A program made the position numbers and the translations under genes. A stretch of 64,000 nucleotides of DNA from Akkermansia massiliensis (lineage in GTDB: Bacteria > Verrucomicrobiota > Verrucomicrobiia > Verrucomicrobiales > Akkermansiaceae), in the NCBI RefSeq assembly GCF_023516715.1, contig NZ_JAMGSI010000001.1, forward strand, positions 1,178,001-1,242,000. Reading direction: 5' to 3'. Below are positions 23,447-27,145 of this stretch, in pieces (the first letter of the stretch is position 1; the number at the start of each line of letters is the position of its first letter). The notes beneath the pieces were generated by a model, which did not search any database, had not been told where the DNA came from, and saw nothing but the letters and a program-made list of their open reading frames with translations.

Positions 23447-25225
23447 ATGAAAACAGCATTACCAACCATCGGTATCCGCCCCACGATTGACGGGCGCCGC
23501 CTCGGCGTCCGGGAATCCCTGGAAGATCAAACCATGAACATGGCCAAGGCGGCCGCGGCTCTCATTGAGGCCAACATCCGCCACGCCTCCGGCGAACCCG
23601 TCAAGTGCGTGATCGCAGACACCTGCATTGGCGGTCCGGCGGAAGCCGCCGCCTGCGCGGACAAATTCAAGGCCAACAACGTCGGCGTCTCCCTGGCCGT
23701 CACGCCCTGCTGGTGCTACGGCAGCGAGACCTTTGACATGGACCCGTTCACGCCCAAGGCCATCTGGGGCTTCAACGGCACGGAACGCCCCGGCGCCGTG
23801 TACCTGGCCGCCGCCCTGGCCGGACTGAACCAGAAGGGCTTCCCCGCCTTCTCCATTTACGGAAAAGACGTCCAGGACGCCGGGGATACCTCCATTCCGG
23901 AAGACGTGGCTGAAAAAATCCTGCGCTTCTGCCGCGCCGGCCTGGCCGTAGCCACCCTCCGCGGCAAGGGCTACCTCTCCATCGGCGGCTGCTCCATGGG
24001 CATCGCCGGCTCCATCGTGGACCAGTCCTTCTGGGAAAACTACCTGGGCATCCGCGTACAGGCCGTGGACATGACGGAAGTGCGCCGCCGCATGGACCAG
24101 AAGATTTACGACGAAGCGGAATTCGACCTCGCCATGCAATGGGCGGACGCCGTCTTCAAATTCGCCGAAGACAAGAACCGCCCGGACCTGAAGCTGGACG
24201 AAGCCGGACGCCGCAGGACCTTCAAGGAAAGCGTGCTGATGGCCATGATCTTCCGGGACATGATGCAGGGCAACCCCAAGCTCAAGAAAATTGACCGCGA
24301 AGAGGAATCCCTGGGCTACCAGGCCATTGCCGGCGGCTTCCAGGGCCAGCGCCACTGGACGGACTTCTACCCGAACGGAGACATTGCGGAAACCCTGCTC
24401 AACTCCACCTTTGACTGGAACGGCCCGCGCGCGCCGATGCCCTTCGCCACGGAAAACGACTCCCTGAACGGAGCCTGCCTCCTCTTCGGCTACCTGCTCA
24501 CCGGACAGGCCAACGTCTTTGCGGACGTGCGCACCTACTGGAGCCCGGAAGCCGTGAAGCGCGTCACGGGCTACAAGCTGGAAGGCCATGCCAAGGACGG
24601 CATCATCCACCTCATCAACTCCGGCTCCGCGGCCCTGGACGGCTGCATGGCCTGCACGGACAAGGACGGCAAGCCCGTCATGAAAAAGCACTGGGACGTT
24701 ACCCCGGACGACGCGAAAACCATGATGGAACAAGCCGTCTGGTGCCCGGCCAACCGGGAATACTTCCGCGGCGGCGGCTACTCCGTCCACTACGTCACCA
24801 AGGGCGGCGCGCCCGTCACCATGATGCGCCTGAACATCGTCAAGGGCCTCGGCCCCGTCCTCATCGTGGCGGAAGGCTGGTCCGTGGACCTGCCCGCCAA
24901 GGTGCACAAGACCCTGGACGAACGCACCGATCCGGGCTGGCCGACCACCTGGTTCGCCCCGCGCCTGACCGGCAAGGGAGCCTTCACGGACGTCTACAGC
25001 GTCATGGCCAACATGGGCGCCAACCACGGAGCCTTCACCTACGGCCACATCGGCGCAGACATCCTGACGCTCGCTTCCATGCTGCGCATCCCCGTATACG
25101 CCCACAACATCCCGGACGACCAAATCTACCGTCCCTCCGCCTGGGGCCTCCATGGCACCGCGGACCCGGAAGGCGCCGACTTCCGCGCCTGCGCCAACTA
25201 CGGCCCGCTGTACGGCAAATATTAA
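23447..25225 (+). CDS. fucI: L-fucose isomerase
   Basis: Cytoplasmic aldose-ketose isomerase converting L-fucose to L-fuculose. The 592-residue length and long matches to the E. coli enzyme are clear: [20 protein letters not shown], then [49 protein letters not shown] and [19 protein letters not shown]. Manganese-binding Glu and Asp residues lie in the central EESLGY and ENDSLNG regions. It is the second gene of the fucose operon. Confidence 0.97.
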
Positions 25226-25238
25226 CGACTGACCTTTT

Positions 25239-25268
25239 CATCAGGGGAAGACATTCTTCCCCTGATGA
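25239..25268 (+). terminator. Strong hairpin after fucI (attenuator or processing site)
   Basis: TCATCAGGGGAAG and CTTCCCCTGATGA pair over 13 bases with a 4-5 base loop. There is no T-run after it on the plus strand, so it may reduce rather than stop read-through into the rest of the operon, or protect the upstream mRNA end. Confidence 0.5.
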
Positions 25269-25285
25269 CGTTCAGCGTTAATATC

Positions 25286-25318
25286 AAAGACTAAATACGA
25301 ATGATTAAAGACTAAAAG
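25286..25318. repeat. Left 33-bp inverted repeat of the S23 islet
   Basis: This AT-rich sequence (begins AAAGACTAAATACGAATG) matches the reverse complement of 25685-25717 at about 24 of 33 positions with no gaps. It contains two internal GACTAAA repeats and ends immediately at the ATG of the S23 gene. Confidence 0.65.
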
Positions 25319-25675
25319 ATGAACGAAAGTGCCGCTCATGAAAAAAGTTTTGCCTTTTCCATTCGTATCGTTTCCTTATGCCGCCATCTTCGCAAGCAAC
25401 GGTGCGAGCAGGCACTGATCCAGCAAATTCTGCGCTCCGGAACAAGCATAGGAGCCAACCTCGCAGAAGCTTCCTATGCCGTAAGCAAAAAAGACTTCTT
25501 CTCCAAAGTACACATTTCACTAAAAGAATGTTCGGAGACTTGGTATTGGCTCCGCCTTCTGCATGCAACTTCCTGCCTGACGGACCAGCAATTTGAAAGC
25601 TTGAAACAGGATTGCCTGGAATTAATGCGGCTATTGACCGCTACGACAAAAACGCTTGCCGGGCAAAATCTCTGA
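25319..25675 (+). CDS. Four-helix-bundle protein (S23 / 23S rRNA intervening-sequence protein family)
   Basis: A 118-residue protein with the family pattern: helix 1 FAFSIRIVSLCRHLRKQRCE, then the signature SGTSIGANLAEASYAVSKKD, then KVHISLKECSETWYWLRLL and a last helix. These proteins form pentamers and were first found in intervening sequences of 23S rRNA genes, where the ends of the insert pair to form a stem. They are often found as solitary cassettes. This one lies inside the fucose operon between fucI and fucK, flanked by 33-bp inverted repeats that would likewise form a stem in the mRNA. It has no obvious role in fucose metabolism. Confidence 0.9.
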   Translation: MNESAAHEKSFAFSIRIVSLCRHLRKQRCEQALIQQILRSGTSIGANLAEASYAVSKKDFFSKVHISLKECSETWYWLRLLHATSCLTDQQFESLKQDCLELMRLLTATTKTLAGQNL

Positions 25676-25684
25676 ACAGTTTCC

Positions 25685-25717
25685 CTTTAGTATCTAATCT
25701 TCAATATTTAGTATTTC
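25685..25717. repeat. Right 33-bp inverted repeat of the S23 islet
   Basis: Mirror partner of 25286-25318 (contains TTTAGTATCTAATCTTC and a second TTTAGTAT). It ends three bases before the fucK ATG, so the islet has replaced the region in which a ribosome binding site would be expected. Confidence 0.65.
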
Positions 25718-25720
25718 TCT

Positions 25721-27145
25721 ATGTACTCCCTCTGCTTGGACTGCGGCGCGACGAACGTGCGCGCGATGGTTGTGGATGAACAAGGCGTCATCGCGGGGAA
25801 GGCCTCGCAGCCGAACGCCACGCTGCCCGGTAAGGAAAACCCGGAATTCCACGTCTGGGACGCGGACCGGATTTTCAAGCAGCTCTCCGAATGCGCCGTG
25901 AAGGCCCTTGAGGGCCTGGATGTGGAACAGGTGCGGGCGGTAACCGTCACCACCTTCGGCGTGGACGGCGCGCTGGTGGACGCCTCCGGCAGCCAGCTTT
26001 ACCCCGTCATATCCTGGAAGTGTCCCCGCACGGCGGAGGTCATGAAAAACATCGGCAAGTACATCTCCCAGGAAGAGCTTGACCGCATCTCCGGCGTGGG
26101 CGCCTTTGCCTTCAACACCATTTACAAGCTCGTCTGGATTAAGGAAAACCGCCCGGAGCTGCTGGAAAAGGCCCATGCGTGGCTCTTCATCTCCAACCTC
26201 CTGGCGTACAAGCTCACCGGCGTCATGGCGACGGACCGGACCATGGCCGGGACCTCCCAGCTCACGGACCTGGAAACGGGAGACTTTTCCGAGCTTATCC
26301 TGAACCGCCTAGGCCTGCGCCGCGGCCTCTTCCCCCCCACGGTGGACGCGGGGGAGACCATCGGCGTTCTTACTCCGGAAGCGGCGGCGGCCATGGGCAT
26401 TCCCGCCCTGGAGGGCGTTCCTGTTATCTCCGCGGGGCACGACACCCAGTTCGCCATCTTCGGTTCCGGCGCGGACAGGGACCAGCCGGTCCTGTCCTCC
26501 GGCACCTGGGAAATCCTGATGGCGCGCTCCGCACAGGCCCGGCTGACCCGGGAGGATTATGAGGACGGAGCCACGGCGGAGTTCGACGCGGAACCGGGCC
26601 TTCTGAACCCCGGCCTGCAATGGCTCGGTTCCGGCATCATTGAATGGGTGAAAGCCGCCTGCTTCCGCGGTGAATCCTACGATACCATGGATGCGGAAGC
26701 GGCCGCCATCCCCCCCGGCTGCGACGGCGTAACGATGGTTCCGGACTTCCTGGCTTCAGGGGACCGGAAAGGCTCCATCGGCGGCCTGGTGCTGGGCCGG
26801 ACGCGCGGCCACATTTACCGCGCCGCCATGGAGGCGCTTACCTGGCGGCTGAAATCCCGCCTGCGCCGCCTGGAATCCGTGGGCGGGTTCAAAAGCGAAT
26901 TCCTCATCCTGGTGGGCGGAGGAGCCAGAAACAGCGTCTGGACCCAGATGCGGGCGGACATCCTCCGGATCCCCGTGAAGGTCTCTGAAGTATCTGAAAG
27001 TACCGTGCTGGGCGCATCCATGTTTGCCTTTGCGGGCGCCGGGGTGTACTCTACGCCAGAGCAGGCCAGGGACGCCTTCGGCATCACTTACCGGACGTAT
27101 ATGCCGGGTCCCCAGGAAGCCGCCTACGAAAAGCTCAACCACTAA
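25721..27145 (+). CDS. fucK: L-fuculokinase (FGGY family)
   Basis: Phosphorylates L-fuculose at C1 with ATP. The 474-residue protein matches FucK along its length: LDCGATNVRAMVVDEQG, TTFGVDGALVDASGSQLYPV, ISWKCPRTAEVM, HAWLFISNLLAYKLTG, VISAGHDTQFAIFGSGAD and LSSGTWEILM. The ATP-binding half has LVGGGARNSVWTQMRADIL. It starts at ATG 25721, directly behind the right repeat of the S23 islet, with no evident Shine-Dalgarno. The aldolase gene begins 14 bases after its stop codon. Confidence 0.95.
   Translation: MYSLCLDCGATNVRAMVVDEQGVIAGKASQPNATLPGKENPEFHVWDADRIFKQLSECAVKALEGLDVEQVRAVTVTTFGVDGALVDASGSQLYPVISWKCPRTAEVMKNIGKYISQEELDRISGVGAFAFNTIYKLVWIKENRPELLEKAHAWLFISNLLAYKLTGVMATDRTMAGTSQLTDLETGDFSELILNRLGLRRGLFPPTVDAGETIGVLTPEAAAAMGIPALEGVPVISAGHDTQFAIFGSGADRDQPVLSSGTWEILMARSAQARLTREDYEDGATAEFDAEPGLLNPGLQWLGSGIIEWVKAACFRGESYDTMDAEAAAIPPGCDGVTMVPDFLASGDRKGSIGGLVLGRTRGHIYRAAMEALTWRLKSRLRRLESVGGFKSEFLILVGGGARNSVWTQMRADILRIPVKVSEVSESTVLGASMFAFAGAGVYSTPEQARDAFGITYRTYMPGPQEAAYEKLNH

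Follow-up and report, generated by a model that had tools for sequence, protein, structure and literature searches.

The S23-family gene between fucI and fucK, in the 64,000-nucleotide stretch of the Akkermansia massiliensis genome analysed here (the window), is enclosed by inverted arms of degenerate seven-base repeats, and inverted arms recur around S23 genes from many phyla. Judged from sequence, the cassette has the behaviour of a mobile element subject to decay. It is probable, though well short of certain, that it is a minimal mobile cassette of heptamer arrays around an S23 gene, which enters gaps in operons and is transcribed together with the host operon. At the level of sequence the comparisons demonstrate its architecture, its recurrence across phyla, presence and absence at exact sites, relatives at unrelated sites, inversion, decay and purifying selection. 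A preceding sequence-only reading of the window had proposed a mobile cassette able to occupy protein operons, which the empty sites and recurring inverted repeats support well; its designation as an "RNA element" is suggested only by analogy. The overall interpretation given there is partly supported.

The S23 gene proposed in that reading is real. Its product belongs to PF05635 (E 1.1e-24, 87.1 bits; curated cut-off 33.8) and to TIGR02436 (E 5.1e-29, 100.7 bits; cut-off 24). fucI, S23 and fucK follow one another on the same strand (Table 1).

Table 1. Features of the fucI–fucK region of the window.
Feature	Position	Strand	Basis and remarks
fucI, upstream neighbour	23447..25225	+	NF008220, TIGR01089 above cut-off
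Perfect 14-bp hairpin 3' of fucI, outside the cassette, terminator-like by shape	25238..25268		inverted-repeat search; absent from terminator scan
5' arm, four degenerate heptamers GACTAAA, TACGAAT, GATTAAA, GACTAAA (25289-25316)	25286..25316	+	inverted copy of 25686-25716
S23 / four helix bundle gene, 118 aa	25319..25675	+	PF05635, TIGR02436; dN/dS 0.04 vs two same-site orthologs
3' arm, inverted heptamers TTTAGTA, TCTAATC, TTCAATA, TTTAGTA (25686-25713)	25686..25716	+	inverted-repeat search, sequence reading
fucK, downstream neighbour	25721..27145	+	TIGR02628 above cut-off

Inverted arms of 33 bases matching at about 24 positions had been described. Such arms do exist, but in the original register only 10 of the 33 positions pair, and a shift by one base gives ungapped arms of 31 nt complementary at 24 positions (77%). 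Their score exceeds chance: none of 2000 dinucleotide shuffles reached it, nor did any of 2914 placements drawn at random across the window. Repeats inside the arms had been noticed as well; what was missed is that they are 7-base tandem units, whose sequence varies by element at a constant period. When the 3' arm is reverse-complemented it reads, by eye, TACTAAA TATTGAA GATTAGA TACTAAA, i.e. degenerate heptamers like those of the 5' arm, and the S23 gene is thus flanked on both sides by inverted 7-base tandem arms (heptamers by eye, inversion computed). The tandem-repeat scan has no row covering these degenerate arms. The inverted flank score of the window is 17, and the 3' arm ends 4 bases before the fucK start.

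For the stem expected in the mRNA the folding results are mixed. The duplex of the two arms (-15.9 kcal/mol versus a shuffle mean of -9.1, with 7 of 500 shuffles as low) indicates moderate pairing that beats most shuffles, and the minimum-energy fold of the 466-nt stretch does pair the arms. The stretch as a whole, however, folds no better than its shuffles (z -0.69, not significant; 30 of 100 fold equally well), and whole-cassette folding was rejected as proof of the stem. No Shine-Dalgarno-like stretch is seen by eye before the fucK start (TTTAGTATTTCTCT), as had been remarked earlier. Between 25150 and 25800 the promoter scan found 0 sites, and the terminator scan gave one terminator-like site on the minus strand (shuffles give 0.7) and none on the plus strand. 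Rfam had no match in 25100-25900 up to E 0.5.

The same genome holds two S23 genes above the Pfam cut-off. The second lies between a uracil-DNA-glycosylase-like gene and gatB (both named by reading), with a long GAGTGGA array reaching the contig end on one side and its short inverse on the other. Since the contig starts inside this array (L001, 1-134), such arrays may break assemblies. Three weaker PF05635 matches below the cut-off (L003, L004, L005) lie in longer frames or in a start-to-stop reading that is shorter; by eye they lack heptamer arms. S23 is present in 31 of 39 relatives.

Inverted repeats were found around other S23 genes too. The order-level set combined same-genus matches above the cut-off with nine regions from other families of the order, seven of them recognised by the S23 profile; 87 S23 stretches were recognised, of which 8 were dropped (contig end, split, or outside 85-200 residues) and 79 were left. 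The inverted flank score exceeds 15 in 62 of these 79 loci versus 2 of 153 control ORFs. Direct scores above 15 also occur (22/79), because arrays and hairpins match themselves in both orientations; the inverted score is the higher one at 68 loci and the direct one at 10, and among all scored elements the direct orientation scores higher in 13. The cross-phylum set was obtained by scanning a genome collection with a three-sequence S23 seed, which gave at least 587 candidate stretches, at least 552 of them confirmed; the best 80 were kept, mostly from metagenome bins. According to record titles these best 80 of at least 552 come from Verrucomicrobiota, Bacteroidota, Ignavibacteria, Cyanobacteria, Deltaproteobacteria, Planctomycetota, Nitrospirota, Peptococcaceae, Chloroflexota, Cloacimonadota, Neomarinimicrobiota, WOR-3 and an ANME archaeon. 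Among the 79 usable ones the score exceeds 15 inverted in 48 and direct in 7, compared with 4 of 85 control ORFs; mismatched arm pairs of the best 80 exceed it in 13.9% of cases, since many cross-phylum elements have similar units. No literature linking S23 genes outside rRNA to heptamer arms was found among the titles and abstract openings listed in a collection of mainly freely accessible journal papers.

The arms are united by their period. Across the flanks of 162 S23 loci, lag 7 exceeds mononucleotide shuffles with a z of 36.4, and all 200 bootstraps rank it first among lags 5-12. In the self-similarity of 80-base flanks, lags 7 and 14 stand out both in the order-level set and in the best 80 of at least 552 cross-phylum loci; lag 21 stands out in the latter and is not above control in the former. 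At a single threshold a lag-7 arm is found in 46 of 79 order-level loci (control segments 0/142) and in 60 of the 79 usable loci of the cross-phylum best 80 of at least 552 (control segments 5/154). A census over 199 partly overlapping loci (1.07 Mb) placed 131 of 185 lag-7 arrays within 350 bases of an S23 gene, a zone comprising 19.3% of the bases. Inverted lag-7 pairs enclose S23 in 56 of 75 cases and have no S23 between them in 19.

Many of the order-level loci without a lag-7 arm have instead the second kind of arm in this set, arrays of small hairpins. These were observed at L036, L038, L043, L044, L047, L051, L056, L058, L072, L076 and L085; the hairpins are joined by constant words, e.g. 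GATATCGTC or GTGAAA, and in several cases are mirrored on both sides.

The unit sequence varies among elements (GACTAAA, GAGTGGA, TGACAAT, GTAAATC, CAGAATG, GGAGTCA), and the two arms of one element usually mirror each other. When cassettes at the same site are compared, the own arm partner fits better than that of the other cassette in 42 of 53 cases, worse in 9 and equally in 2; the p value of 3.7e-6 is optimistic, because pairs share sequences. At unrelated sites, arm similarity rises with S23 protein similarity (rho 0.30 over 251 pairs, reached in 1 of 500 permutations), as far as the 24 of 71 elements passing the heptamer filter are concerned and with sites checked by same-side flanks only.

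That sites without the cassette exist among relatives, a check proposed by the sequence-only reading, is seen both at fucI-fucK and on cyanobacterial plasmids. A search of 59 genus genomes located fucK in 49, and 30 loci, the own one included, were read. An S23 match is present in 8 of them; of the 22 others, 19 show fucI and the gap, and in three fucI is not seen. The cassette of the window occurs in three genomes (the own one and two at 96% and 92% identity). Five genomes carry a second type with units like GTTAATA, its S23 being 55-56% identical in four and 43% in a partial match in the fifth; one of these five copies is broken by an early stop and one by a frameshift. The fucK tree joins G004 (first type) to G050 (second type) as its sister (support 1.000) and places the own genome in a group with three genomes of the second type (0.864). 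As the tree mixes the types, the cassette has been exchanged at this site by insertion or recombination; the swap could be recombination in the flanking genes. Within the two types dN/dS is 0.03-0.04 and 0.10-0.14, and by these ratios S23 is under purifying selection. At the second site of the own genome S23 is intact in 3 of 8 genomes, the own one included. Decay is visible there by eye: G070 retains arms only, G066, G050 and G004 contain eroded remnants, and G067 has nothing clear.

Some fucI-fucK gaps contain other material. Mirrored repeats without S23 were observed in L126 (CACAGATT-type, like the arms of GxxExxY genes) and in L130 (GTACGAA heptamers), and about 1.2 kb of other sequence separates fucI from fucK in L128, L133, L135, L142 and L144.

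With one S23 query 31 plasmid records were matched, mostly cyanobacterial. A phage vehicle was dismissed: the single S23 query, run against 50,697 phage records, matched none of them. An exact site, filled or empty, lies in a Trichormus plasmid region. Among 48 similar records three contain the complete region including S23, and six lack S23 and align over 87% of the region, in two pieces, at 97.3-97.9%. In the three of these six that were read, the flanking genes are 98.2-98.4% and 96.3-97.4% identical. The empty site reads AAAAAGTAA, 13 bases, ATG; the filled one reads AAAAAGTAA, arm, S23, a short 3' flank ending in GTAA, 13 bases, ATG. The cassette thus adds 428 bases to a 13-base gap, with a possible 4-base repeat GTAA. 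Another filled plasmid is shorter by two heptamers, and a further plasmid, at 90% identity, shows a heptamer arm but no S23. The element alone was matched in other plasmids by single-piece matches (H74 77.8%, H105 81.0%).

Other plasmids add to this. In Picosynechococcus PCC 7003 an S23 cassette separates cas10 from cmr3, where PCC 7002 has 12 bases (flanks 85% and 92%). The gap between genes A and B of a Nostoc plasmid operon is 3 bases long in L300-L303 and L305, is filled in L286 and L293 (the S23 of L293 is broken, or split by annotation) and is otherwise occupied in L304; L305 carries a different S23 in the next gap. One cassette (L284) seems to lie within the final codons of the gene before it. 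In CRISPR operons of cyanobacterial plasmids, S23 genes (L285, 1483-1839; L294, 1489-1848; L296, 1480-1848) occupy the cas10/cmr3 gap in one case and the cas6/cas4 gap in two.

When S23 proteins at least 60% identical are paired, site and orientation agree in 61 pairs, the site is the same with the orientation inverted in 6, and 78 stay under every shared-flank threshold, some of these having no flank at a contig end. The clearest relatives without a shared flank are L060/L070/L104 (84-87%) and L061/L066 (81%); L082/L094 are 85% identical, with one flank very short. The in-place inversions concern hairpin-armed forms. L056/L058 and L070/L081 were considered as relocations and rejected, as the flank check on both strands gave inversion in place, with the site shared in the case of L056/L058. 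Upstream of a glyS-like gene (named by reading) two different cassettes occur, both in bin G012 on two contigs, and this bin may be mixed; one of the two is also in G017, and several other genomes have neither, by eye. At no single site can gain be told from loss, and the evidence for mobility consists of presence and absence together with relatives elsewhere.

These comparisons make it very improbable that S23 is an ordinary, vertically inherited host gene with a local role, flanked by slippage-prone spacers or terminators. Such a gene would account for the purifying selection, for in-place inheritance, which the pairs sharing site and orientation show to be common, and for the variation of heptamer number between close plasmids, as slippage would give; it would hardly account for a family that has unrelated neighbour genes in many phyla and also occurs on plasmids, for presence and absence in a 13-base gap between genes 96-98% identical, or for mirrored arms with element-specific units.

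The orientation of S23 bears on transcription. With genes called by ORF length, S23 runs in the direction of both its neighbours at 63 of 77 loci and against both at 0 of 77 in the cross-phylum set (best 80 of at least 552), and in 36 and 7 of 69 at the order level; control neighbour genes lie on one strand in 154 of 191 and 171 of 266 cases. Such a sense bias cannot come from a mirror-symmetric stem; it would follow from dependence on host transcription.

Sense orientation in operons would also be expected if the stem-loop RNA, once excised, were reverse-transcribed into DNA with S23 as an RNA chaperone, in analogy to the Avd protein. Avd of diversity-generating retroelements is a related helical pentamer; the window S23 differs from it in having no Avd family hit in Pfam and NCBIfam scans. 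We regard this RNA route as improbable. No match to the reverse transcriptase family PF00078 was obtained in the window's genome, which sets the cassette apart from diversity-generating retroelements, nor in the S23-rich G002, G010, G017, G020 and G029 (G010 is 84% and G020 81% complete), and only 14 of 39 relatives have a reverse transcriptase; a reverse transcriptase as required partner is unsupported, given the S23-rich genomes without a match. The RNase III excision of the rRNA form, described in the accessible part of PMC4990558, does fit this route.

The preferred reading, that of a cassette entering operons, can be put as a sequence of steps. On the evidence of the site comparisons the cassette would enter short gaps between operon genes, both neighbouring frames staying usable, and the host operon would, to judge from orientation, transcribe it in the sense direction. 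By analogy with the Coxiella 23S insertion, the arms may pair in the transcript and RNase III may cut the S23 message out of the operon message, in which case insertion would be nearly harmless. With less confidence, the S23 protein may bind the heptamer arms and serve as the maintenance or mobility factor of the element itself, which would explain both the fixed 7-base period and the sense orientation. What counts against this reading is the weak stem of the window, loci where the direct orientation of the arms scores higher, order-level loci without a lag-7 arm, loci with direct arrays (L294) or with no arms seen by reading (L297), the order-level antisense cases, and the reported erosion of S23 in Coxiella.

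The protein itself is strongly constrained. Among 158 aligned S23 proteins Q36, N47 and E73 are invariant, position 39 carries R in 149 of them and K in the other 9, and S43 is present in 153. 2rld is the only solved sequence relative up to E 0.1. According to the available part of PMC4990558, a relative from Xanthomonas is a ring of five four-helix bundles, the function of S23 proteins is termed unknown and the origin of the rRNA intervening sequence unclear.

Two other gene families were compared. GxxExxY genes (PDDEXK_3, PF13366) resemble S23 in being small and in having inverted repeat flanks (at the order level an inverted score above 15 at 15 of 30 loci, a direct one at 8), and differ in a period of 8-10 instead of 7 and in belonging to a nuclease-fold family by name. 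At the order level the period is 9 (z 10.4, 200/200 bootstraps, 27 of 30 loci used), with a lag-7 arm in 1 of 30 loci. Of the 48 genomes with S23 that were searched in the cross-phylum set (best 80 of at least 552), 41 contain GxxExxY. In its best 30 cross-phylum loci lags 8, 9, 10 and 12 have z of 5.8, 4.8, 6.1 and 4.0, lag 7 does not stand out (z -1.0) and no single lag is on top in the bootstraps; inverted repeat flanks are present in 15 of 29. The loci L307-L336 and L357-L386 show inverted flanks of period 8-10 with units like CAGGATTAA and CCACAGAGG.

Y1 transposase genes, present in 30 of 39 relatives, have inverted arms in 15 of 20 loci, and this bears on a further alternative, namely that the arms mark both termini of a non-autonomous DNA element mobilised in trans, e.g. 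by a Y1/RAYT-type transposase, S23 being a passenger or host helper. The possible target repeat GTAA at one insertion, the S23-less inverted heptamer pairs and the lack of an annotated catalytic domain in S23 speak for it. We nevertheless consider it rather unlikely: Y1 flanks have no 7-base period (lag-7 arm in 0 of 20 loci, no stable short period or top lag), S23 occurs in genomes without a Y1 match (G006, G008, G009, G018, G019, G026) and the arm period follows the S23 gene. As a required partner a Y1 transposase is disfavoured on the first two grounds.

Since the flank periods of S23, GxxExxY and Y1 genes differ, the period goes with the protein family, less sharply so for GxxExxY. Tentatively, and with somewhat less than even confidence, a new superclass of minimal mobile elements in bacteria may be outlined in which a small non-transposase gene stands between mirrored tandem-repeat arms and its protein family sets the period (7 for S23, 8-10 for GxxExxY), the protein or its footprint acting as if it were a ruler for making the arms; S23-coding rRNA insertions would be one corner of it.

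If S23 rides a general operon-entering cassette, both the function of S23 and the origin of the rRNA intervening sequences become testable, and the arms, the exact filled and empty sites in named cyanobacterial plasmids and the near-invariant protein core provide the material. The S23 cassette would also give one way to explain the 7-base tandem repeats scattered through bacterial genomes, and would show how an element can occupy an operon while sparing its neighbours. A known rRNA oddity would then be one corner of a widespread mobile element.

Among known systems, REP/RAYT (REP-associated tyrosine transposase) elements, in the partial descriptions available, are like the cassette in having a small intergenic gene, inverted arms and gene-less repeat copies elsewhere. 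S23 is, however, no Y1 transposase, PF05635 being the only Pfam family in the window protein (no Y1, or HuH, domain), and its arms are 7-base tandem arrays instead of REP palindromes. The heptameric repeats GGGAATC of Xanthomonas and GGGGATT of Nostoc (PMC4692102) are likewise 7-base tandem repeats between genes, and convergent inverted pairs number 70 and 75 in two genomes of Xanthomonas; unlike the cassette arms, they are generally not tied to mobile elements in the accessible part of that article, which contains no mention of S23.

A close likeness is to the S23-coding intervening sequence in the 23S rRNA gene of Coxiella burnetii. In the accessible text of PMC4990558 this insertion has GACAGAT heptamers in variable number before a sense S23 ORF, the ORF lying between inverted arms as in the window, and a 28-bp terminal stem; RNase III cuts at the first repeat, and the insertion has no effect on growth in E. 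coli. The same portion describes the Coxiella S23 as eroding and probably not expressed, which speaks against its being needed there. The window cassette differs in lying between protein genes, fucI and fucK, and not inside an rRNA gene, in its weaker stem and in the strong purifying selection on its S23. Compared by their published description (PMC4990558, in part), S23-coding rRNA insertions share a scattered distribution and a suspected mobile origin, and on our best reading they represent a special case of the operon-entering cassette.
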